A stretch of DNA of 64,000 nt from Lachnospiraceae bacterium NE2001 (GTDB taxonomy: Bacteria; Bacillota; Clostridia; Lachnospirales; Lachnospiraceae). Positions 2,629 to 62,116 of the stretch are shown piece by piece. The translations under genes and the position numbers were made by a program. The notes under the pieces were generated by a model. The model searched no databases. It was not told the DNA's origin and saw nothing but the letters and a program-made list of their open reading frames with translations. Positions within the stretch are counted from its first letter, which is position 1. The number at the start of each line of letters is the position of its first letter. The stretch is from the NCBI GenBank assembly GCA_900110635.1, contig FOEK01000006.1:62001-126000 (forward strand). Reading direction: 5' to 3'.

Positions 2629-2656
2629 AAAAGACAGAGAACCGTCCCCTGTCTTT
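2629..2656. repeat. REP-like palindrome, AAAGACAG family
   Basis: Minus-strand sequence is AAAGACAG, then GGGACGGTTCT, then CTGTCTTTT: complementary arms around the shared core. It lies 7 bases after the stop of the FtsX-type permease gene and just before the ribosome binding site of the ABC ATPase. It may end the upstream transcript. Related copies are at 51999 and 60917. Confidence 0.8.
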
Positions 2657-2663
2657 ACTTTCT

Positions 2664-5510
2664 TTAATCAACTGATTTGAGGGATTCTATCATGTTTATT
2701 CTAAAGAGACGAATAAATGTTACCAGCATCATCACCAGAGTAAAAATAAATGATAGAGATGCTGCGATCACAAAACTTCTGATATTAATGTCCCTGAGGA
2801 AAACCAGATTATCAACGGCGATAACGTCCAGAACTCTGCCAAGAAGATACGGTGACACCAGAAGCCCCGCGGCAATTCCCAGCACTGAACTGATAATTGT
2901 TTCCCTATATATGTAATCATTTGTCTCAAATGGTGTAAAGCCCAGCACCTTAAGAGTTGCGATCTCCCTTGTTCTCTCACTGATACTGATAGCAGTCAGA
3001 TTGTACAAAACTGTAAATGCCAGCAGTGACGAGATTACAGTGAGTAGAACAACTACTGCATCGAGGCCTTTCACCGCTTCATTTGCCTTTGTTCTTACAG
3101 TCTCAGTTATCGTAACATTTGCCACATCATCTGAATCATACAGTCTGGAGGTAAGTGTATCCTTATCCTCCCAGCCAGCCTTCGCGAGTATCGTGTTGAA
3201 CATTACGCCGTGCTTAAATGTCTTAACATACGTCTCTCTGGACATATAGATATAATTCGATACGTAATTCTCTGTTACCCCACCAACCGTTATGGTATAT
3301 TCCTCATCATCCTCATCAACGATCGTAAGGCTGTCGCCCTGACCAACACCGATCAGATTTGCGATTCTTGGTGTGATAATGACCTCATTTTCCTGAACAC
3401 TAAGAGGCGTACCAGCTTCTATCACTCTGCCTGCATCCAGATCTGCCTTTACATCTCTGGCATCCGCATATTGAAGAGAAAAATATTCCTCAAACTGGTC
3501 ATAACTCTGGGAATCCGGAACTAATAGATATATATCTAGGCTGTGATCCTCACTATTTACAGCCTTAAAAGACTCCATTCTAACCATCAGCGGATCAACA
3601 AGAAGCCCCTCATCCACCAGCTTCTTTCCATTTCGAGTTCCCTGGATGTCTTCAATAGATTTCTGATCATCCATAAGATTTATCATTATATCATAATGAA
3701 CGATCTCACTAAACTGCTTATCGCCAACCTGACTGATGCAGTCCCTTAGAGCAAAGCCTACAAACATCAGGAATGTACAGCCCCCCACTCCGATGATTGT
3801 CATGATAACTCTTCTCTTATACCTCGCAAAGTTTCTGAGAGTAATCTTCCAGGAGAAGGAAAATGTATTCCATAGTGCCGTTATCCTCTCCAGAAGAAGC
3901 CTCTTTCCAGTCTTTGGAGGCACAGGTCTCATAAGATATGCCGGTCTATTCCGCAGCTCCTTCATACAGCTGAAAATAGTCACTCCCGACATGAGCACAA
4001 AGCTTGCAAGAACTGAACCCACAAACATATATGGATTAAATGTCACATACATATCCGGTACAGACAGCGGAAAACAGGTGAAAACAAAGCCCGGAAGTGT
4101 ATATATACCAATAAAATATCCTGCGACAACGCCAATCAGAGTTGCAACTATTACATATATCATATACGAACCGATGATAGCTGCATTTGAATATCCCAGG
4201 GAGGTAAGAGTTCCCATTTCACCTCTCTCCTCGGCTATCATACGGGACATGGTGTTGGAGGTCATAAGTACAACGATCACAATAAAGAAAAATGGAATAA
4301 TATCCGCTATGCTTTCAACCTCTTTGTACTGATCGGAAAGAATCTTATAGTTTGATATCACATCATTTCGATTCTGTATGATCCATTTACATTCTGGAAT
4401 ATCAATCTTTTCATAGGCTTCTTCCCTTGCCTCTTTCATGGCTGTGGACATGGCATCATCCATCTGTTCATCCACCAGCTCATCCACCTGGGCATCAGTA
4501 ATGGGGGAAAGGGCCTCGGTCACTGAGTCAGACAGAGTAGCTACAAACTGTTCAAATGTCATGCCAAACATAGATGCTTTCTCGCGAAGGCTTTCCTTGG
4601 TCTCCTCCTGCTTGGACTCTATTTCTTCTCTAACCTCTTTTTCTATCTCTTCTCTTACTTCTTCCTCAATCTCAGATCGTTTCTCTTCGATCTTAGCATT
4701 TGCCTTATCCTTTGCTTCCTGGTAGAGTTCAGCCACTCTTGCAGTCTCTCTCGTAGACTTTATCTTCTCCACATCATTTGTCAGGATATCAAGCTTTTCC
4801 TTATAACTGTCTGAATAGGGAATATCCTCATCAGTTTTTGCCGTTGTAACGTAGACATCTGTGTAAGCCTCCATATCAAATACATCCTTCTTCACCAGGA
4901 TGTAAGAATATAGCTCACCATTTCCAATATTGGCACTGCCAAAGTCGGTTCCCATATAGATCGGACTGGTAATTGTACCTACCACAGTAAAGACGTGTTC
5001 AGTCAGATCGTCTTTATCTTCATCTTCATCTTCGTCATCATCTTTATCGTCTTCGTCGTCTGAATCGTCTTCGTCATCTTCGTCAACTGGTTCTCTGATG
5101 GTGATCGTATCTCCAACATTAAAATGACGAGAATCTGCAAGGCACTGGTTATCCTTTACGGGATATTTTCCATCCCATTTATAAAACTTATTGATATCAT
5201 TATCAATTGATAGAACTCTTATAACATTATCACCTGAGTAGACATACTTAGAATATCCGGCAGTCACCATTTCAACAGAAGACAGCTTCTCCAGCCTCTC
5301 CACATCCGTATCCGTAAGGCCAAGGGTGCTGACTATATGAAGGTCCATCATATTCGTGCTGGCAGCAAAACGATTTTCTGCATCACGAATAGCAGGCGTC
5401 GACTGTCTGATGCCTGCATAAAAACCAACTCCGATAAGAATGATCGCTACAAGCGATGCAAACCTACCGAAGCTGTGACCTATTTTCTTGAACATATTTT
5501 TAACCAGCAT
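2664..5510 (-). CDS. FtsX/MacB-type ABC permease with acidic insert and coiled coil
   Basis: Large membrane subunit (948 residues) of an ABC system of the LolC/MacB/FtsX class. A single N-terminal membrane segment (about 17-35) is followed by an extracytoplasmic region, three segments around 420-540, a second soluble domain, and three C-terminal segments, i.e. duplicated FtsX halves. Residues 143-168 are almost all Asp/Glu, and residues about 270-320 form a charged Glu/Lys/Arg coiled coil. It starts six bases after the stop of the ATPase gene at 5517, so the two are a unit. Probable role: lipoprotein, peptide or cell-envelope substrate handling; substrate unknown. Confidence 0.85.
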
Positions 5511-5516
5511 TCTTTA

Positions 5517-6215
5517 TTACCACTCGATTTCATCCGGCGAAAGCGGGTTTTCGTTTATCTTTATCTTATCCACCGAGCCATTCTTAATTCTGATTATCTT
5601 ATCACAGACCTTTGCTATCTCAGAATTATGGGTAACTATAATAGTGGTCATACTGCGGGACTTACAGGTCTCAATAAGCAGCTCCACTATCTTCTTTCCT
5701 GTCTCTGAATCAAGAGCACCAGTAGGTTCGTCGCAGAGAAGAATCTTTGGATTCTTTGCAATGGCACGAGCTATAGCAACTCTCTGCTGCTCACCACCTG
5801 AAAGCTGACTTGGAAAGCTTGCCATTCTCTCACCCAGGCCCACATCCCGCATAACCTCAGCAGGATCCAGAGCATCCTTGCATAGCTGACAGGCCAGTTC
5901 CACATTTTCTAATGCAGTAAGATTAGCCACCAGATTATAGAACTGAAATACAAAGCCTATATCATTTCGCCTGTACCGTATAAGCTCTCGGGATTTATAC
6001 TCAGCTATGTTATTCCCATCCACAAAGATTGCTCCACCTGTGGGACTGTCCATTCCGCCAAGCATATTAAGAATAGTTGTTTTTCCTGCACCACTCTGGC
6101 CCAGGATCGCAACCATTTCACCCTTATCCACTGTGAAGGAGCAGTCACGTACTGCTAAAACCTTCACCTCACCACGGTATTCCTTATCTACATCTCTGAA
6201 TTCAATATAAGACAT
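5517..6215 (-). CDS. ABC transporter ATP-binding protein, LolD/MacB type
   Basis: 232-residue ATPase partner of the FtsX-type permease that follows directly. Walker [10 protein letters not shown] is near residue 39, the Q-loop reads FVFQFYNL, the signature is LSGGEQQR, and Walker B is [12 protein letters not shown]; the GALD ending is typical of MacB/LolD ATPases. The C-terminal tail ([12 protein letters not shown]) is short. ATG at 6215 is preceded by GAGG. The unit is separate from the ABC-2 pair downstream. Confidence 0.92.
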
Positions 6216-6238
6216 TTAATTCCTCGAACGCTTCTCAT

Positions 6239-6727
6239 TTAACGATTGTCAACTTTTTCGGGATACATATCGTGCTCTGCCAGTCTCTTCCAGGCCATTT
6301 CCTCAAACTTAGTTCCAGGACGACCGTAATTGGTATATGGATCTATGGATATGCCTCCACGCGGAGTAAACTTGCCCCAGACCTCAATATACTTAGGATC
6401 CATAAGGGCCACCAGATCCTTCATTATCTTGTTCACACAGTCCTCATGGAAATCACCATGATTCCTGAAGCTGAACAGATACAGTTTGAGAGACTTACTC
6501 TCCACCATCTTCACATCCGGAATATATGATATATAAATCGTAGCGAAATCCGGCTGCCCGGTTATGGGACAAAGACTGGTAAACTCAGGACAGTTGAACT
6601 TTACAAAATAATCAGTATCCTGATGCTTATTCTCAAAGGTCTCTAAAACTCCTGGATTATAATCAGTCGGATACTTTACCCCCTGATTTCCCAGCAGCGT
6701 AAGACCTTCCTTTTCTCTATCACTCAT
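6239..6727 (-). CDS. queF: NADPH-dependent 7-cyano-7-deazaguanine (preQ0) reductase
   Basis: Reduces preQ0 to preQ1 in queuosine tRNA modification. 162 residues, the size of the single-domain (YkvM-type) QueF. Seen: the nucleophile region [16 protein letters not shown], the motif [14 protein letters not shown], and a FHEDCVN motif. Of two in-frame ATGs, 6727 has AGGAG with seven bases of spacing, while 6733 would sit one base from it; a longer frame back to 6817 runs into the TSCPD gene. Other queuosine genes are not in the window, and no preQ1 riboswitch is visible upstream. Confidence 0.95.
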
Positions 6728-6753
6728 CTTCATTCTCCTTAAATACGGCTCTG

Positions 6754-7002
6754 TTAGATTGCTTCGTCGATAGCCTTGGCAAACTGGTCGGCACAGGATG
6801 TGCCTCTCATACCACACTGATTACCTCGAAGAATATCTGCTATCTCTGCAGCATCCTTTCCCTCAACCAGCTTTCCAATTGCCTTCAGGTTTCCATTACA
6901 GCCACCTACAAACTTCACATTGTGAAGCTTCTTCTCCTCATCGATATCAAAATCAATCTTCATAGAGCATACGCCCTGCGGACTAAATGTTATATGTGAC
7001 AT
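6754..7002 (-). CDS. Small TSCPD-domain protein
   Basis: 82-residue cytosolic protein. The C-terminal RGTSCADQ matches the TSCPD domain, which in other proteins forms the tail of B12-dependent ribonucleotide reductase. Stand-alone versions of this size (TIGR03905 type) are common in Clostridia and have no proven function. Three further cysteines (CSM, GGCNG, QCGM) suggest metal binding. ATG at 7002 follows a strong AGGAGG. It precedes queF by 26 bases. Confidence 0.85.
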
Positions 7003-7029
7003 ATTTTTCCTCCTAGTATTATCTAATAG

Positions 7030-7221
7030 TTAATTAGTTTCTTCCCACTCAAGTCCTTTTGCCTTGGTGAAAGCCTTTGTTTCTTCCATAGGCATTGGCT
7101 TGCCAAAGTAGTATCCTTGAGCCTTCTCACGCATCTTCTGACACTCCTCTTTGATACGTCCCGAGTTATTCTTCAGTATACTCTCTGTTATCTCAAGATC
7201 CAACAGGAATATGTCCATCAA
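7030..7221 (-). pseudogene. Remnant of an EAL-domain (c-di-GMP phosphodiesterase) gene
   Basis: 63 codons that join two separate conserved pieces of an EAL domain: LLDLEITESILK (mid-domain LEITES motif) and AQGYYFGKPMPMEE (the C-terminal motif that ends EAL domains). In intact proteins these lie roughly a hundred residues apart, so the catalytic DDFGTGYS and AEGVET stretch is deleted in frame. The 5' end overlaps the last 29 bases of the YunG-like gene in another frame. No convincing start or binding site; unlikely to be a working protein. Confidence 0.7.
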
Positions 7222-7645
7222 GATATTTCACCAAACTTTTCTTAAGATACTCATAGCGAAGTCTTTTTTCTTCTTTTTCAAAATGTATCTCTCTGGTCTG
7301 CTCCGGATTATCCTCGTAATCCAGTACCTCATCCCCAAACTGCTCACTGGTAAGATCAAACACGTGTCCACCTATATCGTTATAGCAGTGGTAGTTTCCG
7401 CCAGGTCTAAGAATTCCATACACCTTGCCTCCAAAAATATCCTGTACAAGAAATGCTGTAATAGAGCACTGTCCAAGAGTAATATTCTCTTTGCTCCACT
7501 CATTTCTCAGTCTTGGCGCACAGGTGTATTCACACCACACATTCTTAAGCGCATCATACAGATCCTTTGGAGTTGTAATCCCCTTATATTTATCTGTAAT
7601 TGCAGGGACCGTCGCCTTTTCCCAGCCATAAAAATTATACCCCAT
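7193..7645 (-). CDS. YunG-like protein
   Basis: 150-residue soluble protein resembling the YunG family, which has no established function. The matching core is GQCSITAFLVQDIFGGK followed by GGNYHCYNDIGGHVFDLTSEQF, with conserved Cys and His residues that hint at a cysteine-protease-like fold. ATG at 7645 has GGAGG seven bases upstream. The last residues (YLDGHIPVGS) are read from DNA shared with the EAL remnant, so the native C-terminus may have been replaced. It follows the acetyltransferase by 17 bases. Confidence 0.7.
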   Translation of the reverse strand: MGYNFYGWEKATVPAITDKYKGITTPKDLYDALKNVWCEYTCAPRLRNEWSKENITLGQCSITAFLVQDIFGGKVYGILRPGGNYHCYNDIGGHVFDLTSEQFGDEVLDYEDNPEQTREIHFEKEEKRLRYEYLKKSLVKYLDGHIPVGS

Positions 7646-7662
7646 CTAAAAACCTCCACACA

Positions 7663-8109: not shown

Positions 8110-8194
8110 CTTTTAAACACCCCCTTCTCCCTTGTAGAATAATACAAAAAGCTTATCTTTTATTATATCAAAATAAACCTTCTTATGCTATTCT

Positions 8195-15800: not shown

Positions 15801-16439
15801 ATGCAAACATTTAAAATTGATTCTCAATATAGCACTCTGATCAGTCTCAGAGTATCTCAGGGACATTTTGCAACCATTTCATCACATATCAATCATTATA
15901 TTGATCTTACCACTTTGAAAGCCAGAGCCAGCGAGGCTAAGGCTGTTGCAAAGGCTATGAGCCACGATTATATCGCCTCTACTATCGTTGATACGATCGT
16001 GTGTCTGGATGGAACCGAGGTAATCGGTGCATATCTTGCTGATGCCCTGACAGAATCAGGTATTATGTGTCTCAATCAGCATAAAACTATATATATTACC
16101 ACACCTGAAGTGAATTCTATGGGACAGCTAACCTTTAAGGATAATGTAATCCCAATGATCAACAATAAGCATGTGCTTCTGCTTCTTCCAACCGCTACAA
16201 CAGGTCTTACCACCGAGAAGGTACTGGACTGCATCAGATACTACGGTGGAAGCATAGCTGGTATATCTGCTATCTTCTCTGCTGCAGATCAGGTTGAAGG
16301 AATCGAGGTCAATTCAATATTCCACGTAAATGATATCGAAGGTTACGCTTCCTATTCATCTCACGAATGTCCATTCTGTAAGGCTGGCGTAAAGCTGGAC
16401 GGACTTGTATCCGCAGGCGGACTTTCAAAACTCAACTAA
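15801..16439 (+). CDS. Phosphoribosyltransferase-like protein with altered PRPP loop
   Basis: 212-residue soluble protein with the outline of an orotate-phosphoribosyltransferase-like fold. The stretch HVLLLLPTATTGLTT (124-138) corresponds to the PRPP-binding loop, but the two acidic residues usual before TTG are replaced by Pro and Thr, so ordinary PRPP chemistry is doubtful. The C-terminus has a CPFC pair (190-193) that could bind metal. ATG at 15801 has GGGGG upstream. A single-gene unit with its own promoter and a hairpin terminator. It could be a regulator or a binding protein rather than an enzyme. Confidence 0.6.
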   Translation: MQTFKIDSQYSTLISLRVSQGHFATISSHINHYIDLTTLKARASEAKAVAKAMSHDYIASTIVDTIVCLDGTEVIGAYLADALTESGIMCLNQHKTIYITTPEVNSMGQLTFKDNVIPMINNKHVLLLLPTATTGLTTEKVLDCIRYYGGSIAGISAIFSAADQVEGIEVNSIFHVNDIEGYASYSSHECPFCKAGVKLDGLVSAGGLSKLN

Positions 16440-16441
16440 AC

Positions 16442-16489
16442 AATAAGGGACGGTTCTCAGTTGGTGATTCGAGAACCGTCCTATTTTTT
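16442..16489. repeat. REP-like composite hairpin and terminator
   Basis: GGACGGTTCTC and its exact complement GAGAACCGTCC enclose a loop carrying AGTTGGTGATT, the arm of the AATCACCAA family. It therefore looks like one element joined to an inverted fragment of another. It begins two bases after the stop of the upstream gene and ends in TATTTTTT, so it should terminate plus-strand transcription. Confidence 0.8.
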
Positions 16490-16553
16490 ATTTCTGTAGT
16501 TTTATATCTGTGTTTTATTTCTGTGTTTTATTTCTGTGTTTTATTTCTGTAGT
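16486..16553. repeat. About five tandem copies of a 13-14 base unit
   Basis: Units of TTTATTTCTGTGT (variants TAGT and TATATCTG) run without gaps from the terminator into the last codons of ktrA. On the minus strand each unit reads as ACAGAAATAA, the exact end of ktrA, so the gene's final codons and TAA stop have been copied several times downstream. Confidence 0.85.
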
Positions 16554-23504: not shown

Positions 23505-23518
23505 ATTCTCTCCAATCA

Positions 23519-23550
23519 ATGTGCGAGTGGGGACAGTCCCTTCTGCACAT
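23519..23550. repeat. REP-like palindrome, ATGTGCA family
   Basis: ATGTGC arm, GGGGACAGTCCC core and GCACAT arm, with mismatches in the inner arms. It overlaps the first base of the topB stop codon and ends just before the ribosome binding site of the NlpC/P60 gene. Confidence 0.75.
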
Positions 23551-25631
23551 TACTTCTTTGTGTAGTAGGGTTTTGCTTTATCGAAAACAAAATGCATCTG
23601 GTTCTGGTTCCGGATGCCCTTTACGATATTTACGTATTTAACAACGTAGCCGTTCATCTTCTCGATGTAGTCATTTTCAGGAATTTCGCCATCGGCAACT
23701 CCCTGAAGGCCGTACTCCCAGCTGGCAGTCAGTTCTGCGCTGAGAAGGCCGTTTATAGAGTAAAGCACCACATCGTAGATGATCTCCCCAAGGAAGGTTG
23801 GTGTAAGTATCTGTGTCTTCTTGTTTAGTGATATATATTTGTTATTTACAAGCTTAGTGATGATCGCATCTCGGGTAGCAGAGGTTCCAATACCACTACC
23901 TTTTATCTGCTCACGCAGCTCTTCGTCCTCAATCAGCTTTCCTGCATTTTCCATAGCAAGGATCATAGAACCAGAATTATATCTCTGCGGTGGATTGGTC
24001 TTACCTTCTTTGATTTCAAAACCAGATACAGGAAGCACCGAACCCTTTTTAAGACTTGAGATATATTCCATCAGATCAGCTGTTATAGCCTGATCCTCAG
24101 ACTTATCCGAGTCCTTCTTGTCAGCCGTATCATCCTCAGAAGCCTTCTCCCCCTCTTTACCTGCACTTTTATTTTCACCAGATGGAGCAAGAACCGCAGG
24201 ATTTGCTATCTTAAGATATCCAGGTTTTACCAGCATCTTAAAGGATGCACTGAACTCCTCGCCGTTTCTCACCAGCGTTATGGCCAGCTTCTGATACTCT
24301 GCCGGCGCATAGAAGATAGACAGAAATCTTCTCGCTATAAGATCATAAACCTTCTGCTGTATATCTGGAAGCTTGGACAGCTGTCCCAAGCCCTGTCCGG
24401 TTGGTATTATGGCATAGTGATCTGTGATCAGCTTATCATTTACATACTTTGACTTTGCTATTCCGGCATAGCCCTGATTTGCTATTATATTCTGAGCAAA
24501 GCCTGCAAGGGGACCATAACTGATAAGCCCTTTGATATTCTTATCTATCTCTTTCGCAATAGCTGTAGAGAGAACTCTGGCATCCGTTCTTGGATAAGTC
24601 ACCAGTTTCTTCTCGTATAGCTCCTGAACTATATTCAGAGTGTCCGTAGGGCTGATCTTAAAACGCTTGGAACAATCATTCTGAAGCTCAGCCAGATTGT
24701 AAAGCATTGGCGGATTCTTCTTCTCCGTCTTCTTGGAGATACTCTTTATAGTCATCTCCACAGGCTCTGGAGTTTTGAGATACTCAATCAGTTCCTCAGC
24801 ATCTTTTCGCTCTTTGAAACCATTTTCTTTATAAAGCTTAGGACTCTCAAAATATTTACTTCCCTTGACAGCCTTCCATTCTGCCTCAAATAGCTTCCGT
24901 CTCTCTTCGCCCTCTTCAGCTGGTTTCTCAATTCCAGCAATAACACGGTAAAATGGAGTCGATACAAATTCCCTTATCTCACGTTCCCTTTTTACAACCA
25001 TTCCAAGAACGCAGGTCATAACACGGCCAACCGCAATGACACATTTATCTACTCCCAGATATTGCTTTATTGGATAGGAATATTTGAGAGTAAGTGCCCT
25101 GGAGAAATTAATACCCATGAGGTAATCCTCTTTGGCACGAAGGTAAGCCGCAGAACTGAGATTATCATATTCTGACAGAGGCTTTGCCTCATTGATTCCT
25201 CTTAATATCTCCTCCTCGGTCTGTGAATCAATCCACACACGGCGTCGGTCCTTCTTAGGATCCACCTCAGCCATTTGATCAACCAGACGATAGATATATT
25301 CTCCCTCTCGTCCCGAGTCGGTACAGACATATATTGTCTCCACGTCATCCCTTGTAAGCAGTCCCTTTACTATATTAAACTGCTTAGCTACAGCAGGAAT
25401 TATCTCATATTTATAATCCTCCGGGATAAATGGTATAGTATCAGGAGACCATTTCTTCAGTTCAGGATTATAGGCATCCGGATAACTCATGGTAACAAGA
25501 TGTCCCACACACCAGGTCACTATATAATTTTCATCTTCTATATATCCATCCTTGCGGGAGCCCTTCACCTTTAGTGCATCGGCGAACTGCTGGGCTACCG
25601 AAGGTTTTTCTGCAATAAATAGTTTTTTCAA
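23550..25631 (-). CDS. topB: DNA topoisomerase III
   Basis: Type IA topoisomerase that decatenates and relaxes DNA, 693 residues. N-terminal TOPRIM start LFIAEKPSVAQQ, the TOPRIM acidic motif CTDSGREGEYIYR and the active-site Tyr in LVTYPRTDARVLS. A charged low-complexity insert (KEGEKASEDDTADKK) lies at about 495-525. No zinc-finger tail. The start is TTG at 25631, with GAGGTG five bases upstream. It begins 18 bases after livM, so it may be read from the transport operon. Confidence 0.95.
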   Translation of the reverse strand: MKKLFIAEKPSVAQQFADALKVKGSRKDGYIEDENYIVTWCVGHLVTMSYPDAYNPELKKWSPDTIPFIPEDYKYEIIPAVAKQFNIVKGLLTRDDVETIYVCTDSGREGEYIYRLVDQMAEVDPKKDRRRVWIDSQTEEEILRGINEAKPLSEYDNLSSAAYLRAKEDYLMGINFSRALTLKYSYPIKQYLGVDKCVIAVGRVMTCVLGMVVKREREIREFVSTPFYRVIAGIEKPAEEGEERRKLFEAEWKAVKGSKYFESPKLYKENGFKERKDAEELIEYLKTPEPVEMTIKSISKKTEKKNPPMLYNLAELQNDCSKRFKISPTDTLNIVQELYEKKLVTYPRTDARVLSTAIAKEIDKNIKGLISYGPLAGFAQNIIANQGYAGIAKSKYVNDKLITDHYAIIPTGQGLGQLSKLPDIQQKVYDLIARRFLSIFYAPAEYQKLAITLVRNGEEFSASFKMLVKPGYLKIANPAVLAPSGENKSAGKEGEKASEDDTADKKDSDKSEDQAITADLMEYISSLKKGSVLPVSGFEIKEGKTNPPQRYNSGSMILAMENAGKLIEDEELREQIKGSGIGTSATRDAIITKLVNNKYISLNKKTQILTPTFLGEIIYDVVLYSINGLLSAELTASWEYGLQGVADGEIPENDYIEKMNGYVVKYVNIVKGIRNQNQMHFVFDKAKPYYTKK

Positions 25632-38269: not shown

Positions 38270-38581
38270 TATACGCCCATCTTTCACATTTGTCAATCAC
38301 TTTTTCCATAAAATGTGCAATTAGGGACAGACCTATGTGCAATGGGGACTGTCCCCATTGCACATAATTGTTACGTTAGCCCGTAACACTTTCGAAATAA
38401 TTGTTTGTGTACTTTACATAATATTCCTGGGTGATTTACATAATATCCGTAGTTTATTTGTGCATTTTGTACAATACATCTAAAAATTTTCCGTTATTAT
38501 GAACATATTCACGAAATGTTACAAAAATGTTGCATTTGTATTAATATTGATGTAAAACTTATCTATGCAAAGGAGATTTAT
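38270..38581. other. 312-base gap before the 3D-domain gene
   Basis: Contains the REP-like pair at 38313-38366, a small hairpin GTTACG/CGTAAC (38370-38387), and a 12-base direct repeat TTTACATAATAT at 38413-38424 and 38435-38446 (22 bases apart). A TTGCAT with TAAAAC 17 bases on, near 38530, is a weak promoter guess for the next gene. Confidence 0.5.
38313..38366. repeat. Tandem pair of REP-like palindromes, ATGTGCAA family
   Basis: A half element (ATGTGCAATTAGGGACAG, 38313-38330) is followed by a perfect one at 38334-38366: TATGTGCAATGGGGAC, a central T, and the exact complement. The only locus not beside a stop codon. Confidence 0.85.
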
Positions 38582-39127: not shown

Positions 39128-39168
39128 AAAAATCACCAATTGGGGACAGTCCCCAATTGGTGATTTTT
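39128..39168. repeat. REP-like palindrome, AATCACCAA family, acting as terminator
   Basis: Perfect 20-base arms around a single A: AAAAATCACCAATTGGGGAC and its complement ending in TTTTT. It begins one base after the stop of the 3D-domain gene. Confidence 0.92.
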
Positions 39169-42187: not shown

Positions 42188-42212
42188 TAATGAATATCTG
42201 CAAAAAGTATAA

Positions 42213-42252
42213 AAAATCACCAATTGGGGACAGTCCCCAATTGGTGATCTTT
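42213..42252. repeat. REP-like palindrome, AATCACCAA family
   Basis: ATCACCAATTGGGGAC, central A, exact complement, flanked by A-run and CTTT. Nearly identical to the copy at 39128. It ends three bases from the stop of the DegV gene. Confidence 0.9.
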
Positions 42253-44827: not shown

Positions 44828-44845
44828 AATTCCTTATTCTAAACT

Positions 44846-44878
44846 ATCAACAACTGAGAACCGTCCCCATTTGGTGAT
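44846..44878. repeat. REP-like element, AATCACCAA family, imperfect
   Basis: Minus strand AATCACCAAATGGGGACG, then GTTCTCAGTTGTTGAT. Its first AA forms part of the TAA stop of the ABC ATPase gene. Confidence 0.75.
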
Positions 44879-45654
44879 TACAGCATTCCAAGGAAATGCT
44901 TTGTTCTTACTTTTTTAGGATTTTCAAATACTTCTTTTGGAGTACCCTTCTCCAGCACTATGCCTTTATCCATAAAGATCACCTGATCCGATACATCCTT
45001 GGCGAAGGACATCTCGTGAGTCACGATGATCATAGTCATCTTCTTCTCAGCCAGTTCCTTTATAACCTTGAGAACTTCGCCTGTGAGCTCTGGATCCAGA
45101 GCCGAGGTTGGTTCATCGAAGCAAAGTATATCCGGTTTCATTGCAAGAGCCCGGGCTATAGCCACTCTCTGCTGCTGACCACCCGAGAGCTGATGTGGAT
45201 AATTGTCCATTCTCTCAGACAGCCCCATCTGGTTAAGAAGCTCTTCAGCCTCCTTACGGATCGACTCATTTATTTCTTTCTTGTTAGACTTGTAATCATC
45301 CTGTCTCTTTGCCTGAAGCTGTCTTGGAAGCATAACATTTCCAAGGGCAGTATACTGCGGAAAGAGATTAAATGACTGAAATACCAGACCAAAATGAAGT
45401 ATATTCTTTCTCTTCACAGACTCCTTCAGGTACTGTGGATCCTCTGCATCGAAGACAGTCTCTCCATTTACACGTATTACTCCCTTACCAGGCTGCTCCA
45501 GAAAATTAAGACAACGAAGAAGGGTTGTCTTGCCGCTTCCAGAGGAACCAATGATCGAGAGAACCTGGCTCTTCTCCAATGTAAAGCATATATCCTTCAG
45601 AACCTCAGTCTTGCCAAAGGATTTACTTATATGTTCAACCTCTAATATACTCAT
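44878..45654 (-). CDS. Polar amino acid ABC transporter ATPase (GlnQ type)
   Basis: 258 residues. Walker [22 protein letters not shown], signature LSGGQQQR, Walker [16 protein letters not shown]: all intact. ATG at 45654 with AGGAG six bases upstream. Third gene of binding protein-permease-ATPase. Its stop codon is completed by the REP-like element. Confidence 0.93.
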
Positions 45655-51981: not shown

Positions 51982-51998
51982 CAATTCATAACAAAAAT

Positions 51999-52058
51999 AA
52001 AAGACAGGGGACGGTTCTGTGTCTTAAAAATAAGACACAGAACCGTCCCCTGTCTTTT
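51999..52058. repeat. Head-to-head pair of REP-like elements, AAAGACAG family
   Basis: Perfect 28-base arms with an AAAA loop. Each arm is itself an element: AAAAGACAGGGGACGG then TTCTGTGTCTTA. It lies 8 bases after the stop of the ABC exporter gene and ends in T on both sides, so it should work as a strong terminator for either strand. Confidence 0.93.
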
Positions 52059-52066
52059 CTATCTTT

Positions 52067-54232: not shown

Positions 54233-54247
54233 ATTTTAAACCTCTAG

Positions 54248-54289
54248 AAATCACCATTTGAGAACCGTCCCCAGTTGGTGATTTTTTTT
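54248..54289. repeat. REP-like element, AATCACCAA family, imperfect
   Basis: AAATCACCA and TGGTGATTT arms around GAGAACCGTCCCC, then eight T. It directly follows the DUF1854 stop at 54290 on the minus strand. Confidence 0.75.
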
Positions 54290-54823: not shown

Positions 54824-54850
54824 GGTATTATTCCTTTTTAGTTTATATAA

Positions 54851-54965
54851 CACCTCATCAGTCAGCTTCGCTGACAGCTTCCTCTCGTCTGCCGACTCGG
54901 TCAATCGGCCTAAACCGTGTGCCACTGGCACACAGGCCGTCCTCAAGGAGAAGCCTTTTTCGCCT
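54851..54965. repeat. Second copy of the two-hairpin repeat, with internal insert
   Basis: Minus strand: AAAAAGGCTTCTCC, an insert with hairpin GTGTGCC/GGCACAC nested in GGCC/GGCC (54907-54938), then GAGGAAGCTGTCAGC, GAA, GCTGAC and TGATGAGGTG. Compared with the copy at 27507, the stem GTCTGC/GCAGAC is GTCAGC/GCTGAC, a compensated change. It fills the gap between the ABC exporter and DUF1854 genes. Confidence 0.7.
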
Positions 54966-54977
54966 TCAGCTATATAT

Positions 54978-57266
54978 TTAAAATGAGGATTCCAAGGCCA
55001 GAGATTTGGTCTGGAGCTCCAGCAGGTTGTGGTAGATGCCGTTCTCCAGCTTTCCAAGCTCTTCCTCTGTTCCTTCTTCAACTATACGTCCGCCATCAAT
55101 AACTATCAGTCTGTCAGCATCTGAAAGTGTGGATAGTCTATGGGCGATGGAAAGGGTTGTTCTACCCTTTACCAGAAGCTTAAGTGAGTTCTGGATAGCC
55201 TTCTCTGTTTCTGTATCCACGCTGGCTGTTGCCTCATCCAGAATAAGAATCTTTGGATCTGCGAGAATTGCTCTGGCAATTGATAGTCTCTGCTTTTCTC
55301 CACCTGACAGGTTCTTTCCTGAAGCTCCGATTATTGTGTCATAGCCGTCAGGAAGTCTAGATATGAAATCGTGGGCGCTGGCCAGCTTTGCCGCTCTTAT
55401 AATATCCGCTCTGGAAGCATTTTCATTTCCATAGGCAATATTCTTGGCAACTGAACCCATAAAGATATAGGTATCCTGCGAAACCATGGACACGCTCTTT
55501 CTAAGGTCAGCCAGGGCCAGATCCTTAACGCTTATTCCATCAATCTTAATCGTACCTTCATTTACGTCATAAAGACGTGATATCAGGTTGACCAATGTGG
55601 ACTTTCCCGCTCCAGAACGACCAACTATGCCTAGCATTTCACCTTCCTTAACCTTAAGGTTAATGTCCTTAAGAACAGGGCGTCCAACCTGATAGCCAAA
55701 TGTAACCCCTGAAAGCTCTATCTCTCCACGGGGATCAGTTAGCCTTACCGGATTTTCGATTTCCTGAATATCAGGTATGGCATCAATAATCTCAAATAAT
55801 CTTTCAGCAGAATTGATACTGTCTGCCCACATACGGAAAACCCAGGCGAAGAAATTCATAGGGCCGTTAAGCTGCATTACATAGCCGACAAAAGTGATCA
55901 GAACACCCAGATCGATCTTGTCGGTTTTCAGAACAAAGAACACACCGATGAGCCATATCCAGATGCTGGAAATCTCCTGCACCATATTGTAGAGTATAGC
56001 TATACGATTTCTTAGTCTGACCATATTGATCTCAGCATCTCTCAGATGGTGATTTGGCGATTCAAATCTTTCTATCTCTGATGCTTCCTGGCCAAATGCC
56101 TTTACAACTCGTGAACCAGTTAAGTTATCATTTGCTCTTCCGGAAACAGACTTTTCTGCACGATGTCTCTTTCCAGAAAGTGTCCAGAGTCCCGGACGAA
56201 GCTTAACTGTAAGAAATACAAGTAAAGGTAGCAATATGCAGGCGATCAGCGCCATCTGCCAGTTAAGCCTGTACATTACTATAAATGTCACGATTATGGT
56301 TATGCCATGAACGAAGATCATGGGCAGACCATCGATAAAGAAATCTCTGACCTTTTCGGAATCACTAAGTACTCTTGTCATAAGTCCGCCAGTCTGTTTA
56401 TTCACAAAGAAATCCAGCGACAGACGACTCATGGCATCAAACACATCAGTCTTTATATCACGTACGGCCTCACTGGCTACCCGTGCCATAACAAATACCT
56501 GCAGGTAATTGGATATGGCAGCAATAAGTCTGCATCCTATCATCACCAAGGCTACCAAAAGCAGCGCCAGCATATACTCTCCTGCCAGGCCATATTGCGC
56601 CAGATAAGTATCATCCTTTTCCAACACATGGTCAAAGAGAACCTTACCTATAAGATAAGGCCAGGCTATACTAATGACCGCAGCTACTCCATAGGTAAGC
56701 ATCAACACTGTTACCTGGAACTTATATTTCAGGAAGTATTTCAGAGTTCTGCCAAAGATGGAACGTTTATTCTTCTTTGGTTCCTCTGCTACCTCTTCCT
56801 CCTCATCCTCTTCAGCAGCAGTAATCTCCTGCCCCTTCAGGTATCCTCTGAGCTGACGGACGAACACATTCATTTCACCCTGATATCTATTAGTGAAAGC
56901 AGCTATTCTCAGCTCCTTTCCATCATACTCAGCTGAAACTATATTTGTTCCTATATAGTGATCCAAATGTACATGCGCCAGTTTTTCCAGATCATAGAAG
57001 GTGATCTCGTATTCACCTGGCTCATCCATATTCAGGCCATCCTTTATTCCATTAAATGTGACCACGTAATCCGAGGGGAGTTCCATGGTACATACGCCCA
57101 GCTTCTTCTTTGTAAGAAAGATATATCCTTTGATATAACCACCACCAGAGGAGCCATCAAAAGAAAGATCTATCGGGCTAAATGCTAATATATCCTTTTT
57201 ACGAATATCGAAGGCCCAGATACTGCTAAGGGCCTTCGATGTCATTTTACTAACTTCTTTTTTCAC
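54978..57266 (-). CDS. ABC exporter (fused TMD-ATPase) with PH-like N-terminus
   Basis: 762 residues. Residues about 15-148 form a beta-rich PH-like domain, 150-163 a Glu-rich linker, 170-480 six membrane helices, and about 500-755 an ATPase: GRSGAGKSTL, LSGGEKQR, ILILDEATASVD, all intact. Start: GTG at 57266, three bases after the xylanase stop, with no clear binding site; ATG at 57245 is equally possible. Being directly downstream of the xylanase, it may belong to the carbohydrate operon, but a link to glycan export is not shown. Confidence 0.87.
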   Translation of the reverse strand: MKKEVSKMTSKALSSIWAFDIRKKDILAFSPIDLSFDGSSGGGYIKGYIFLTKKKLGVCTMELPSDYVVTFNGIKDGLNMDEPGEYEITFYDLEKLAHVHLDHYIGTNIVSAEYDGKELRIAAFTNRYQGEMNVFVRQLRGYLKGQEITAAEEDEEEEVAEEPKKNKRSIFGRTLKYFLKYKFQVTVLMLTYGVAAVISIAWPYLIGKVLFDHVLEKDDTYLAQYGLAGEYMLALLLVALVMIGCRLIAAISNYLQVFVMARVASEAVRDIKTDVFDAMSRLSLDFFVNKQTGGLMTRVLSDSEKVRDFFIDGLPMIFVHGITIIVTFIVMYRLNWQMALIACILLPLLVFLTVKLRPGLWTLSGKRHRAEKSVSGRANDNLTGSRVVKAFGQEASEIERFESPNHHLRDAEINMVRLRNRIAILYNMVQEISSIWIWLIGVFFVLKTDKIDLGVLITFVGYVMQLNGPMNFFAWVFRMWADSINSAERLFEIIDAIPDIQEIENPVRLTDPRGEIELSGVTFGYQVGRPVLKDINLKVKEGEMLGIVGRSGAGKSTLVNLISRLYDVNEGTIKIDGISVKDLALADLRKSVSMVSQDTYIFMGSVAKNIAYGNENASRADIIRAAKLASAHDFISRLPDGYDTIIGASGKNLSGGEKQRLSIARAILADPKILILDEATASVDTETEKAIQNSLKLLVKGRTTLSIAHRLSTLSDADRLIVIDGGRIVEEGTEEELGKLENGIYHNLLELQTKSLALESSF

Positions 57267-57269
57267 TTT

Positions 57270-59816
57270 TTATTCTACTAACTCCGCGTGTCCGAACATT
57301 GCCGGATTCATATAACATGTTCCAGTGTCATCTGCCCAGCTCATAGTACCGATTCTTTCGCCACTACCGCCGGCATCATTTATCTGAAGCTCAAGACCGA
57401 TTTCGGTTCCTGCTTCAGGAGTTATCTCACTCCACTTGATCGCACAGACGATGATGTATCCTCCGTCTGTTACTTCTGCGTAAGACTTGATATATTCATC
57501 AAGACATTTCTCACCATTGAAGCTCTTCTTGTTATTGAAGCTCACACGATACTGCTTGTCGCCATCATCATAGCCGCCTGCACGAGAATTGGTCTCATCA
57601 ATAAAGACTTCAATACTATCCTGCTGATAGTCATCCTCGCTGTCATCATTAAGAACCTCATCCTTTACATCAAAGTAAACATAGAGATTCTCCTCATCCC
57701 AGAGAAGCTTTGCATCTGCAGTAGCCTTAGCGTTCTGAACCTTGATCTCAAGTGGAACAGCCTCAACATCGTCCCAGGCAGGATCAATAGTTTCTCCAAC
57801 ACTAACTGTTCCCTTCTTGATTTCGATAGTAGGTCTCTCAACTACGAGAACTGACTCATCTACTGATGAAGGATCAGTAAAGGCATAAAATGCTGGCTTT
57901 GCCTTGTAGCTTCCATCGAAGAGAAGTGGGCACTGAAGGATAGTACCTGTTGCACCACCACCTACGTTACTCTGCTGCTGAAGCCAGGAATATGTATCGA
58001 TTACACCCCAGATAGTGATGCCTGATACAGTGATGCCATCTTCAGCATTTAACTTCTTCATTAACTCATATATCTGGCCGTAATATGCAGCCTGTCTTGC
58101 GTACTCATCTGCAAGGCCTGCCTCTGTTCCGTCGAACATTGCACTGACCTTTACATCAAGCTCTGTGAGCATTATCTTATCAACTATCTCTGCATAGCCT
58201 CTTGCAGCTGCTTCAATCTGATCAACTGATGGAGCACTTACTGTATAGTGTGCCTGCATACCGAAGCCATCAATACGGGTTCCCTCTGCTGACTTAACAT
58301 CTGTAAGAAGCTGCTTGATTCCCTCAGCCTTCTTAGAATCACATTCATTGTAATCATTGTAGTAAAGCTCGAGAGATTCAGGAGCATAGGTATTGGCAAA
58401 CTTAAATGCATTTATAATAAACTCGTTTGAGCCATAGACCTTCCACCAGCTGGATTTGCTGCCGTGAGTTGAATCAGAAAGCTGATCGCTGCCTGGCTCT
58501 TCATCTGTTCTATAGGTTGCTGTGCTGTCGCTGATTGCTTCATTAACAACATCCCAACCATAGAAGAGATCCTTATACTTGCTGTCATCAGCTGTGAAAT
58601 GCTCCAGCACTGACTTGATATACCATTCAAGTCTCTGGTTCATCACTTCTTTGGAAACGTAATCATTTTTCTTATCATAATCCTCGTGGAAGAACCACTC
58701 AGGTGTCTGTGAGTGCCATACAAGAACGTGTCCACGAACCTTGATAAGCTTATCAGGATTCGCGTCATTCCACTCAATTATCTTATCAAGAATAGCTTCT
58801 GCTCTGGAGAAGTCCAGGGTTGGAACCTCTATGGTCTCACCGTTCAGTTCCTCCTCGTGAATACTGCCAGATGCAGGTGCATCGTTGTTGTATCCAAACA
58901 TTGAATCTGGCTTTAGCTCATTTTCCAGAGTCACAGCATTAAAATGCTTTTCAACCAGCTTCATCAGATTAGAGTCATTTATTCCAACAGATCCGAGACA
59001 ACATCCGATGATCGCGTCATCGCCCAGACCATCAGAAGAAGCAACAACACTTCTAAGATCCACAATATCCTCTTCAACTCCTATAGCTGTTGCAGCGCCG
59101 CCATCCTGTGGAACAAGCTTTGCTCCTGCTATATAGAAATCACCCTTTACACAGGTGCCATTTCCATAGTCAGTACCCTGCTCGATAATACGGATAACTG
59201 CCTTTTCAGCCTTTCCGCTGAAGCTTGGAGTAAAAGTACCCGAGAACTTCTTCCACTCGCCCGGTGTAAGCGTCTCACTTGGGTTACCTGTAATCTCAGC
59301 TGAGTAAGAACCAAGATAAGTTGTATTTCCATCTACTGTAATATAAGGAGCAAAATCTACTATTCGCTGATCAGCAGGTGCGCCCTCATACTCATCTCCC
59401 AGCATTGCATAGAACTCATAATCATAGGTTACACCGCCCTCCAGACTGTCTGTAACATCCTGTGCAAAACAGTCATATGGAGATGATGATCCAGGATCTC
59501 TGTTTAGCTTTCCATAGGTCGGGAAGCCTTCAGGTCCATTTCCATCACTTACAACCTCGATGCCAAGAGAACCGCACTCTATGGACCAGGCTGATACATC
59601 ATCACTGCTGAAATATCCATTGGTAAGGATATTTCCCTCTACCTCTTCTACCGCAGCAACCTCCACTGCTTCTGTAGCCGCCTCAGAAGCTGCCTCGGTG
59701 CTCTCAGAACTGCCGCTATCCTGTGTATCATTATCACTTTGACCACAGGCACCTAGTCCAGCTATCATTGCCATAGCCAGGACTGTACTTGTAAATACTT
59801 TAAACCCTCTTTTCAT
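57270..59816 (-). CDS. Lipoprotein GH10 endo-xylanase with two carbohydrate-binding modules
   Basis: 848 residues. Lipobox GLGAC, Cys24, then a Ser/Glu/Ala linker. Residues about 60-235: beta-sandwich CBM of the CBM4/9/22 type. About 270-640: GH10 barrel with acid/base Glu426 in WDVVNEAI and nucleophile Glu552 in TELDVKV, plus RGHVLVWHSQTPEW. About 655-845: CBM9-like domain (LLWDEENLYVYFDVKD). Cell-surface attack on beta-1,4-xylan is inferred. ATG at 59816 has GGAGG five bases upstream; an earlier start at 59828 lacks one. Confidence 0.95.
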   Translation of the reverse strand: MKRGFKVFTSTVLAMAMIAGLGACGQSDNDTQDSGSSESTEAASEAATEAVEVAAVEEVEGNILTNGYFSSDDVSAWSIECGSLGIEVVSDGNGPEGFPTYGKLNRDPGSSSPYDCFAQDVTDSLEGGVTYDYEFYAMLGDEYEGAPADQRIVDFAPYITVDGNTTYLGSYSAEITGNPSETLTPGEWKKFSGTFTPSFSGKAEKAVIRIIEQGTDYGNGTCVKGDFYIAGAKLVPQDGGAATAIGVEEDIVDLRSVVASSDGLGDDAIIGCCLGSVGINDSNLMKLVEKHFNAVTLENELKPDSMFGYNNDAPASGSIHEEELNGETIEVPTLDFSRAEAILDKIIEWNDANPDKLIKVRGHVLVWHSQTPEWFFHEDYDKKNDYVSKEVMNQRLEWYIKSVLEHFTADDSKYKDLFYGWDVVNEAISDSTATYRTDEEPGSDQLSDSTHGSKSSWWKVYGSNEFIINAFKFANTYAPESLELYYNDYNECDSKKAEGIKQLLTDVKSAEGTRIDGFGMQAHYTVSAPSVDQIEAAARGYAEIVDKIMLTELDVKVSAMFDGTEAGLADEYARQAAYYGQIYELMKKLNAEDGITVSGITIWGVIDTYSWLQQQSNVGGGATGTILQCPLLFDGSYKAKPAFYAFTDPSSVDESVLVVERPTIEIKKGTVSVGETIDPAWDDVEAVPLEIKVQNAKATADAKLLWDEENLYVYFDVKDEVLNDDSEDDYQQDSIEVFIDETNSRAGGYDDGDKQYRVSFNNKKSFNGEKCLDEYIKSYAEVTDGGYIIVCAIKWSEITPEAGTEIGLELQINDAGGSGERIGTMSWADDTGTCYMNPAMFGHAELVE

Positions 59817-59839
59817 TTTATCCTCCACTTATTTCTTTC

Positions 59840-59858
59840 ACGTGACAAATAGTCACGT
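59840..59858. promoter_or_regulatory. Perfect inverted repeat upstream of the xylanase gene
   Basis: ACGTGAC-AAATA-GTCACGT, ending one base from the stop of the esterase gene and 24 bases before the xylanase start. It may be an operator, or a small mRNA hairpin between the two genes. Confidence 0.5.
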
Positions 59859-59859
59859 A

Positions 59860-60906
59860 TTAGATTCTATTCATCCAGACCCTTGCCAGCTCAGGCCAGA
59901 GGCCAATATCCTCACTCCAGGTCTTATCTATTTGCGGAACAAAGAATTGATCACTCTCCATTTCATCCACTAACTCAGCAATCTCTTCCCTGTCAATAGG
60001 TTCTCTATCAGGGAACTGCATTTCCAGTTCCTTCTTACGCTGATCCGATACATTTATTCCCTTCCCAGCCTTTACAGCCGCCACTGCCATTTCAACCTGT
60101 TTCATAACATATTCGCCGCCAGCATTAATGGAGAAGAACTTTTCTGATGGATAGCTCAGTCCATGGAAACCCGATGGGAATACATAGTGAGCATACATCA
60201 CGCCCTTCTTTCTAAGAGCCTCAGCCATCAGATAGCTGTTCTCAACCGGAACCAGATCATCCGTTACCGTCTGCCACACAAAGCAAGGCGGTGTATCCTC
60301 TGTCACCTGCTTCTCAAGTGAGAAGTATTCCAGTTCTTCAGCCGTAGGTTCCTTGCCTAGTAATGTCTGAATCGAATATTCGTGCGTATATTCGCCAGTT
60401 GTAATAACCGGATACGATAGGATGGCGCCATCTGGTCTATTACTTACGTCCTTATAACCATCCGACTTATCCTGTATATCAGCAAAATGCACCGCAAGAC
60501 TGCCAGCCACGTGAGCACCAGCTGAGAAGCCGCACACTATCAGATTCTTTCCTTCTATGTTGTAATCCGTCTCTCTTTTTCTAATATATCTTACCGCTCT
60601 GGATATATCTTCGAGAGGCTGCTTCTTTAGGGGAACCGACATAGTAATATCAGTTGTATAGGTGAGGACAAATACATTCATCCCCTGCTTGTAGAAGACC
60701 TCTCCCACAAGCTCACCCTCGTGCGGAGTGCACATACAGTAGCCGCCCCCCGGCACCACCAGCATACAGTCTCTCTGGATCTTCTCACCATCAGAGGTTA
60801 TTTCGTCCTCATCATGAATATAACCATGAATATTTGGAATAAATCCGTAGGCCGCCTCGTAGGTATACTCACCCTCCTGCCAGATAGTCTCTTCAAATAC
60901 TCTCAT
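59860..60906 (-). CDS. Alpha/beta-hydrolase, probable (acetyl)xylan esterase
   Basis: 348 residues, no signal peptide, so intracellular. Oxyanion GGGY, nucleophile Ser in GFSAGAH, Asp in TVTDDLVPV and His in SGFHGLSY form a complete triad of the BD-FAE/Axe-like esterase class. A Glu/Asp-rich C-terminal extension of about 70 residues is unusual. Action on acetylated xylo-oligosaccharides is inferred from its place beside the xylanase. ATG at 60906 follows GGGAG with five bases of spacing; an in-frame ATG 12 bases upstream has less support. Confidence 0.8.
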   Translation of the reverse strand: MRVFEETIWQEGEYTYEAAYGFIPNIHGYIHDEDEITSDGEKIQRDCMLVVPGGGYCMCTPHEGELVGEVFYKQGMNVFVLTYTTDITMSVPLKKQPLEDISRAVRYIRKRETDYNIEGKNLIVCGFSAGAHVAGSLAVHFADIQDKSDGYKDVSNRPDGAILSYPVITTGEYTHEYSIQTLLGKEPTAEELEYFSLEKQVTEDTPPCFVWQTVTDDLVPVENSYLMAEALRKKGVMYAHYVFPSGFHGLSYPSEKFFSINAGGEYVMKQVEMAVAAVKAGKGINVSDQRKKELEMQFPDREPIDREEIAELVDEMESDQFFVPQIDKTWSEDIGLWPELARVWMNRI

Positions 60907-60916
60907 ACAAACTCCC

Positions 60917-60948
60917 AAAAAGACAAAGAACCGTCCCCTGTCTTTTTT
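60917..60948. repeat. REP-like palindrome, AAAGACAG family
   Basis: AAAAAGACA, AAGAACCGTCCCC, TGTCTTTTTT. It lies 8 bases after the kdgK stop (minus strand) and just before the esterase gene. Confidence 0.8.
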
Positions 60949-60956
60949 CTTCTTTA

Positions 60957-62060
60957 TTAGCGTTTGACGCGGGCGCCTGCCGCATTCATTATTGCTTCAA
61001 CCTCACTGAGGCGTGCCATGGATGTATCTCCCGGTGTTGTCATAGCGAGAGCACCGTGTGCCGCTCCATAATTAACTGCCACCTCTGGATCCTCACTTGT
61101 CATAAGACCATATATAAATCCTGCCGCAAATGAATCTCCTATGCCTACTCTGTCCAGAACCTCAAGTCCATCATATTCTCTGGACATACATATCTCGTTA
61201 TCGGCGAGACACAGAACCTTCCAGTCATTGACACTGGCAGTCCTTACTGTGTGAAGCATGTTGGCCAGAATCTTGATGTTAGGGAAATCTGCTGCCACCT
61301 GAGAAAGCATCTTTTTAAATGCATCAACATTTAACTCTTTAAAGCCTTCATCTGCTCCCTCGACCTCATATCCGAGACAGGCCACATAATCCTCCTCGCT
61401 TCCAATAACCACATCTGCGTACTTTGCAATCTCGCGGTTAACCTTTACACATTCGTCTATACCACCAGCCAGGTCCCACAGGGATGCACGGTAATTAAGA
61501 TCATAGGAAACTATGGTTCCATACTTCTTTGCAGTCTTGCAGGCTTCAATCACAACCTTCTGGGATTCAGGAGAAAGTGCAGCGTAGATTCCACCAGTGT
61601 GGAGCCATCTTACCCCCAGGGTACCAAATATGTACTCAAAATCAAAATCATCCAGGGTAGCCTGAGATATGGCTGTATTGGCTCTGTCTGAGCAGCTTAG
61701 TGCTCCTCTTATACCAAAACCTCTCTCGGTGAAATTGATTCCATTTCGACATAGCTTACCGATTCCATCTGTGGCCTTCCAGGAGATCAGGGATGTATCA
61801 ACTCCGCCCTGTTCGATAAGATCCTTAATAAGAAGTCCCACCTCGTTGTCTGCAATGGCTGTCATAACTCCGGTCTTCATATCGAAGCACTTGTGAAGGG
61901 CACGGGCCACATTGTATTCACCGCCGCCTTCCCATACACGGAAGCTTCTGGCAGTCCGAATCCTGCCCTCACCCGGGTCCATGCGAAGCATTACCTCGCC
62001 CAGACTCAGCATATCAAACCTGCAATCTTCTTTAGATTTTAGCACTAACCTATTTACCAT
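60957..62060 (-). CDS. kdgK: PfkB-family sugar kinase, probable 2-keto-3-deoxygluconate kinase
   Basis: 367 residues. PfkB signatures: N-terminal GEVMLRM, WEGGGEYNVARAL, and the C-terminal RVGIGDSFAAGFIYGL with the catalytic Asp. KDG kinase activity is inferred from context: eda and uxaC follow directly upstream, making the glucuronate-to-KDPG route. ATG at 62060 with GAGG seven bases upstream. Confidence 0.85.
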   Translation of the reverse strand: MVNRLVLKSKEDCRFDMLSLGEVMLRMDPGEGRIRTARSFRVWEGGGEYNVARALHKCFDMKTGVMTAIADNEVGLLIKDLIEQGGVDTSLISWKATDGIGKLCRNGINFTERGFGIRGALSCSDRANTAISQATLDDFDFEYIFGTLGVRWLHTGGIYAALSPESQKVVIEACKTAKKYGTIVSYDLNYRASLWDLAGGIDECVKVNREIAKYADVVIGSEEDYVACLGYEVEGADEGFKELNVDAFKKMLSQVAADFPNIKILANMLHTVRTASVNDWKVLCLADNEICMSREYDGLEVLDRVGIGDSFAAGFIYGLMTSEDPEVAVNYGAAHGALAMTTPGDTSMARLSEVEAIMNAAGARVKR

Positions 62061-62083
62061 TTCTATATCCTCGTAGTTTAATT

Positions 62084-62116
62084 ATGTGCAAGCGGGGACT
62101 GTCCCCACTTGCACAT
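62084..62116. repeat. REP-like palindrome, ATGTGCAAG family
   Basis: ATGTGCAAGCGGGGAC, central T, GTCCCCACTTGCACAT: one mismatch in 16-base arms. It lies 12 bases after the eda stop (minus strand). Confidence 0.88.

Follow-up and report, generated by a model that had tools for sequence, protein, structure and literature searches.

A stretch of 64,000 nucleotides from the genome of Lachnospiraceae bacterium NE2001 (contig FOEK01000006.1, positions 62,001 to 126,000; hereafter the window) carries eleven copies of short hairpin repeats that are scattered through the whole genome and have one tip in common, set on stems which differ in sequence but match themselves. These repeats are very probably non-autonomous mobile hairpins, similar to repetitive extragenic palindromes (REPs) and terminal inverted repeats (TIRs), of the REP-associated tyrosine transposases (RAYTs) of group 1, or TnpA_REP subclass 2.1, which are of the Y1 HUH type. 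The observations that carry this reading are the hairpin potential of the repeats, the covariation of their arms, their position on the flanks of RAYT genes, their dispersal and species-specificity, and their absence from the aligned sites of the sister species Lachnospiraceae bacterium AC2031 (genomes G204, of the same genus, and G314). Elements of this kind are already known; what is new is chiefly the rule of a constant apex with exchangeable stems, and its fast turnover.

The core GGGGACNGTYCY has 15 exact matches in the window, symmetric cores scoring once per strand; 100 dinucleotide shuffles gave 0.14 on average and never more than 3. A preliminary description of this DNA had listed eleven loci with a shared core and three sets of arms said to be always self-complementary. 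All eleven exist where it had placed them or a few bases away, and ten hold the exact core; the copy at 16438-16481 is decayed, reading AGGGACGGTTCT, which GGGGACNGTYCY does not match, and its left arm is also gone. The three arm sets hold up, though not cleanly in every copy: the one at 44845-44880 is imperfect, that at 38313-38365 combines a half unit with a palindrome and that at 52001-52056 is an inverted dimer, so that self-complementarity applies to most copies but not to all. A scan of the window against Rfam at gathering scores gave no match. The copies are as follows:

2630-2656, minus strand: arm set A monomer, AAAGACA-GGGGACGGTTCTC-TGTCTTT on that strand; AC2031 has a gap of 28 nt opposite it in the alignment.
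16438-16481, plus strand: degenerate arm set B copy with core AGGGACGGTTCT and without left arm; AC2031 alignment diverged and coreless.
23518-23551, no strand: arm set C palindrome (ATGTGC..GCACAT) with slight decay; no through alignment to AC2031.
38313-38365, plus strand: arm set C composite of a half unit and a full palindrome; AC2031 has similar copies elsewhere.
39128-39168, no strand: arm set B, symmetric double-core form; terminator-like.
42212-42252, no strand: arm set B, symmetric double-core form; terminator-like.
44845-44880, minus strand: arm set B monomer with imperfect arms; aligned AC2031 site coreless.
52001-52056, no strand: arm set A inverted dimer, REPIN-like; terminator-like; aligned AC2031 site coreless.
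54248-54284, minus strand: arm set B monomer; aligned AC2031 site coreless.
60917-60947, minus strand: arm set A monomer; 33-nt gap at the aligned AC2031 site.
62084-62116, no strand: arm set C palindrome with symmetric core; 30-nt gap at the aligned AC2031 site.

Beside the degenerate set B copy, at 16499-16550, GTTTTATTTCTGT occurs three times in overlapping tandem at 13-nt steps.

The sets read AAGACA-GGGGACGGTTCTC-TGTCTT (A), AATCACCAATT-GGGGACGGTTCTC-AATTGGTGATT (B) and TGTGCAAT-GGGGACNGNCCCC-ATTGCACA (C). Both core forms can be read as a single apex, consisting of GGGG, a five-base loop ACNGN and then YYCY. When folded as a single strand, the GGGG strand forms one continuous hairpin in which G.T pairs close the apex; the opposite strand has unpaired bases in the apex, yet folds almost equally well. 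In a 464-kb sample of the genome (the window and 20 further stretches), seven inverted (+/-) pairs stand at a spacing of 32 nt, the kind of fixed spacing by which REPINs are recognized, and in genome G201 inverted pairs recur at spacings of 21 and 38 nt. The symmetric form GGGGACNGTCCCC looks like the outer halves of such a pair, fused. Loci L157 and L158 (genomes G210 and G201) have inverted pairs, GGGGACGGTTCTG..CAGAACCGTCCCC, in which the core itself makes up the outer arm, in many cases with an offset of 21 nt. The symmetric core also resembles a palindrome of operator size, as expected if the repeats were operator sites of a DNA-binding regulator. This explanation is hardly credible given the hundreds of core matches, the asymmetric form of the core, the covariation of the stem outside it and the inverted dimers of fixed spacing.

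In some set C copies (L006:247-348, L072:1822 and L074:18505) a recurring stretch, GCGCGTTGTCTGC.., splits the core behind TGCAATGGG or TGCAGTGGG; in L006 this stretch contains a small palindrome of its own and is followed by the remaining half of the core. The interrupting stretch is possibly a second small element inserted into set C copies.

The genome-wide search for the core that the preliminary description had proposed gave 155 forward and 150 reverse matches to GGGGACDGTYCY in the 62 contigs (3.72 Mb), 305 in all with symmetric copies counted twice, against 3 + 1 = 4 for the reversed control. The copies are thus not limited to the window, and the arms beyond it are complementary as well. 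The 18-mer AAGACAGGGGACGGTTCT, taken as the set A word, occurs 124 times. Sorting of 192 looser-core matches in the 464-kb sample by their arms assigned 79 to set C, 54 to A and 15 to B and left 44 without a set, many of these being chance matches; the rules were loose, symmetric copies entered on both strands and a few were mislabelled (e.g. L072:4360, an A copy called B). As for their placement, 98 of the 131 copies with recognizable arms fall outside predicted open reading frames (ORFs), although a crude caller assigned 90.3% of the sample to coding sequence and left only 9.7% of the bases uncalled.

Alternatively, the repeats might serve as terminators of transcription or as mRNA hairpins, conserved for that function and multiplied by a route other than a transposase. 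Of the gaps between co-directional genes, with ORFs from a crude caller, 29 of 43 in NE2001 (P 0.03) and 10 of 12 in AC2031 (P 0.04) have the core on the coding strand, and between 38000 and 55000 of the window 25 terminator-like rows were recovered against 9.4 expected, nine of them from the three elements at 39128, 42212 and 52001, all of which would suit such a role. However, the elements at 38313, 44845 and 54248 yield no terminator-like row, the aligned AC2031 sites are coreless, the arm sets are species-specific and the arms beside RAYTs are gene-specific, so that this origin appears unlikely; use of the elements by the host following insertion is possible.

Two further patterns of placement were considered and set aside. 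In NE2001, 12 of 46 copies stand just 5' of a Shine-Dalgarno site and 13 of 46 on the other side, the corresponding numbers in AC2031 being 8 of 19 and 1 of 19; no such placement is claimed. A replication-strand bias was suspected in G201, where cores seemed one-directional over 1.7 Mb, and was dropped when the full list showed inverted pairs.

The assembly contains six Y1_Tnp matches, only one of which is of the REP type. This RAYT (G000:C41:113508-114242, 245 aa) lies on contig C41, in another place in the genome than the window, in agreement with the preliminary description, which had found no RAYT in the window and had advised looking for a Y1 gene flanked by the same arms. Such a gene exists for one of the three arm sets: set C elements adjoin the C41 RAYT on both sides as inverted repeats, in the manner of TIRs, with GGGGACNGACC-type cores and not GGGGACGGTTCT. 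Set C therefore matches the resident RAYT. The protein scores 45.3 bits against PF01797 (Y1_Tnp; cut-off 23), and H60, H62 and Y119, the last of which is presumably the catalytic tyrosine, are invariant across 11 aligned proteins, so that a Y1_Tnp domain, an HUH motif and a tyrosine occur together. A profile of these 11 proteins had TnpA_REP 4er8 as its sole match in the PDB up to E 0.01 (E 5e-6).

From reading of their sequences, the other five Y1 matches appear to be IS200/IS605-like pieces at contig ends. In two of them, L002 and L006, a set C element lies some 150 nt away from the Y1 match, as might be expected if the repeats were miniature elements of, or targets for, the IS200/IS605 transposases of the genome. 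The other three lack an element that near (L005 has elements about 1.2 kb off, and L001 and L004 have no core bearing such arms), and the RAYT has elements on both sides, with arms that are gene-specific in its relatives, making a derivation from IS200/IS605 very improbable. The pieces in L002 (241-390) and L006 (221-350) finish with similar sequence (..GCGGCGRCTAGTTATCAAAA..), immediately followed by the set C element, as if an insertion sequence sat beside set C copies.

RAYT matches were recovered from 41 of 200 genomes of the same family and from 21 of 61 genomes of the genus, NE2001 included in both counts, and at 19 named loci, Neobacillus and Shimazuella among them; on plasmids there were 24 records, every one below 60% identity. 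The core GGGAC[GA][GAT] is present on both sides of the gene in 35 of 69 RAYT loci (shuffled mean 2.3, maximum 5), and hairpins of at least 6 pairs occur on both sides in 20 of the 69 (shuffled 0.35, maximum 2). The left arms are alike between the two ends of the same gene (6.5 of 10 positions identical, against 3.96 of 10 across genes), a difference reached in none of 10000 permutations over 18 loci. These 18 are the loci, among 26 scoring at least 270, that have copies on both sides, L107 having been dropped as a near copy of L003 and both members of L110/L111 and of L112/L113 having been kept. Arm identity and RAYT protein identity correlate weakly (r 0.22, 153 pairs).

The arms also change together, as the preliminary description had proposed. 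In 105 copies from 26 of 42 RAYT loci, chosen for having a [GA]GGGACGGTTC copy, pairing between the arms extends to 5.25 of 8 positions; shuffling gives 3.43, with a maximum of 3.93 in 2000 shuffles. An alignment of 29 copies was built from the first listed copy of each of the 26 loci and one each of sets A, B and D, set D being the arms found in AC2031; the D row is shifted by one base and contains a gap. The loci having been chosen by the core, its constancy in this alignment arises by construction, and the pairing of the arms alone is the result. Arm covariation scored 0.607, compared with 0.200 in shuffles and a range of 0.086-0.199 when the partners were slid; 66.7% of cells were paired against 40.4%, and 79 cells were changed on both sides against 37.7. 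The alignment includes near relatives (L110/L111, L112/L113, L152/L153 and L170/L171), and the shuffles leave the kinship of some loci in place; the slid-partner control retains it.

Among the relatives, arms resembling set A stand on both sides of the RAYT at L051 (G079, of the family) and on one side at L147 (G287, of the order). At the latter locus (L142/L147, G287:C1 about 4750-5860), where the A-like element is found on the upstream side only, the 5' part of the RAYT runs in frame into a portion that looks like a C-terminal fragment of Cas1, with a small cas2-like ORF behind it. The joint could be a genuine fusion or an assembly artefact.

The arm sets turn over between closely related genomes. 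AC2031 has a RAYT that is 96% identical to that of NE2001 and lies in the same neighbourhood, and the set C composite of the window matches about 44 further places in AC2031. No exact set A or B word occurs there; AC2031 has instead the arms TCTGCCA/TGGCAGA (set D) around the same core. Seven of the eleven window sites align through to AC2031 and none of the seven has a core, three of them showing the short gaps listed above; the other four sites have no through alignment. None of the 60 other genus genomes searched contains the set A word; in the order, G287 and G308 have one copy apiece, and viral contigs gave no match to it. Elsewhere the same core bears GGAGACA/TGTCTCC arms (G235), and the symmetric core bears CGTGACAA/TTGTCACG arms (G236). 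Across the genus, the core count has a median of 14 in the 21 genomes with a RAYT match and of 2 in the 40 without (P=0.0014), so that the presence of a RAYT predicts the number of cores, loosely.

One element of AC2031, L139:11344, is alone in carrying set C arms on the GGGGACGGTTCTC core, otherwise the core of A, B and D arms, which suggests that apex and arms have been exchanged. Such exchange, the core common to all sets and the lack of a second RAYT-type gene among the six Y1 matches of the NE2001 assembly all agree with a different account, in which the resident set C RAYT recognizes the apex alone and mobilizes every arm set in trans, the arms needing merely to pair. The GGGGACNGACC-type cores at the ends of the resident RAYT, the gene-specific arms of its relatives and the A-like arms beside other RAYTs argue against this account, which is best regarded as a possible but doubtful one. 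Sets A and B probably derive from RAYTs since lost, but may instead be served in trans.

Several observations weigh against the interpretation of the repeats as mobile hairpins of RAYTs with a constant apex. The A and B monomers fold almost as well on one strand as on the other (-6.0/-5.6 and -11.0/-10.6 kcal/mol, respectively), so that the apex favours one strand only weakly. The C41 protein scores 52.4 bits on NCBIfam REP_Tyr_transpos, under the cut-off of 80, which of four proteins scanned L158 (G201) alone passes (90.1), and the matches of its C-terminal helix-turn-helix (HTH) region are weak and below the Pfam cut-offs (HTH_23, 17.0 bits; HTH_28, 14.6 bits). No RAYT with set A or B arms is found among the six Y1 matches of NE2001, nor one with set D arms among the three of AC2031. 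Of the seven alignments to AC2031, four (B1, B4, A2 and B5) are noisy. A core is missing on one or both sides in 34 of the 69 RAYT loci, some being cut by contig ends, and in the covariation test 8 of 8 pairs have a change on both sides, which does not exceed the 7.9 of the shuffles. In the genus, 9 of 40 genomes without a RAYT match hold at least 20 cores (201 in G236), and 12 of 21 with one hold fewer than 20. Repeats of this kind are commonly explained by loss of the gene following a burst, and incomplete assemblies may lie behind some of the RAYT-less, core-rich genomes. Finally, a second RAYT of AC2031 (L148:1372-2223) is flanked by palindromes without GGGGAC, and GGGGAC is thus not universal for such genes. 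These palindromes stand in tandem on both sides; their arms are of the TGAGTCAC/GTGACTCA type, their loop is CGTCGGACGT, and they are apparently of a different apex type.

In the preferred reading, the repeats fold as single strands into the constant apex GGGG - pentaloop ACNGN - YYCY atop a lower stem, the sequence of which is free provided that the arms pair. Binding, cutting and movement by the RAYT, and the direction of movement, are predictions from sequence: the transposase would bind the apex of the single-stranded hairpin and cut and re-join single-stranded DNA, and copies would spread, chiefly to intergenic places, as monomers, inverted dimers and tandem units. Every RAYT lineage would bear its own arm set, and the arm sets of a genome would therefore record the RAYT lineages once active in it. 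More tentatively, and with less likelihood than not, a RAYT lineage might read the constant apex alone, one transposase driving several stem families in cis and in trans, with stem sets changing from one sister species to the next around an apex that is kept throughout much of the RAYT clade. The loci supply many natural combinations of apex and stem, a sizeable share of them next to a RAYT, which makes directly testable both the part of the hairpin that is read by the protein and whether one RAYT drives several repeat families.

The REPs and REPINs of E. coli and Pseudomonas, which carry a GTAG tag, are short hairpins and inverted dimers, mostly intergenic, present in many copies and linked to RAYTs. 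The elements described here are like them in their short hairpins, inverted dimers, largely intergenic position, high copy number and link to a RAYT, but have no GTAG/GGAG tag at the foot, the constant part being the hairpin apex: the tag was found on the 5' side of 7 and on the 3' side of 2 of 133 core matches, against 9.3% of random 20-nt windows. REPs mobilized by RAYTs had been named as the closest type in the preliminary description, and arm covariation, absence from the aligned AC2031 sites and the gene-specific arms of relatives support the RAYT link; as to type, the elements are better compared with the TIRs of RAYT group 1 / subclass 2.1.

In the literature searched, a single library, the core words led to no relevant paper, and no report of these repeats in Lachnospiraceae was found among the matches listed. 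The closest known system is that of TIRs and TIRYTs (TIRtrons), with which the elements share inverted repeats around a RAYT-like gene, self-complementarity, dimers and dispersal. RAYT-like genes flanked by TIRs have been described, some TIRs having GGGGWSAS, some being self-complementary and found as dimers or clusters, and some forming moderately abundant dispersed families (Di Nocera et al. 2013, PMC3733652). That paper's main text does not contain the words Firmicutes, Clostridi and Butyrivibrio, and its account of TIRs, in the parts drawn on here, does not state a constant apex with exchangeable gene-specific stems and leaves as a question whether RAYTs and TIRYTs recognize each other's repeats. 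Sets A, B and D start with GGGGACGG, which does not fit GGGGWSAS; of the 133 core matches in 464 kb, 36 (GGGGACAG) fit, and 78 (GGGGACGG) and 19 (GGGGACTG) do not. Of the described TIRYTs, 20 of 26 fall in TnpA_REP subclass 2.1, with repeats GGGG[AT][CG]A[CG], according to Quentin et al. 2018 (PMC6006769). This subclass corresponds to RAYT group 1 and combines a Y1 HUH core, as in the C41 protein, with a C-terminal HTH-like region (Bac_DnaA_C, HTH_23 or HTH_28), for which the C41 protein gives the sub-threshold HTH_23 and HTH_28 matches named above; the gene is placed there by resemblance and not by the profiles of those authors. Their searches are reported to have recovered no REP-like sequences beside subclass 2.1 genes, and further analyses were called for. 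Unlike in that account, hairpin repeats flank many relatives here, and the elements join the TIRYT and subclass 2.1 accounts as multi-copy hairpins found both beside such a gene and away from it.

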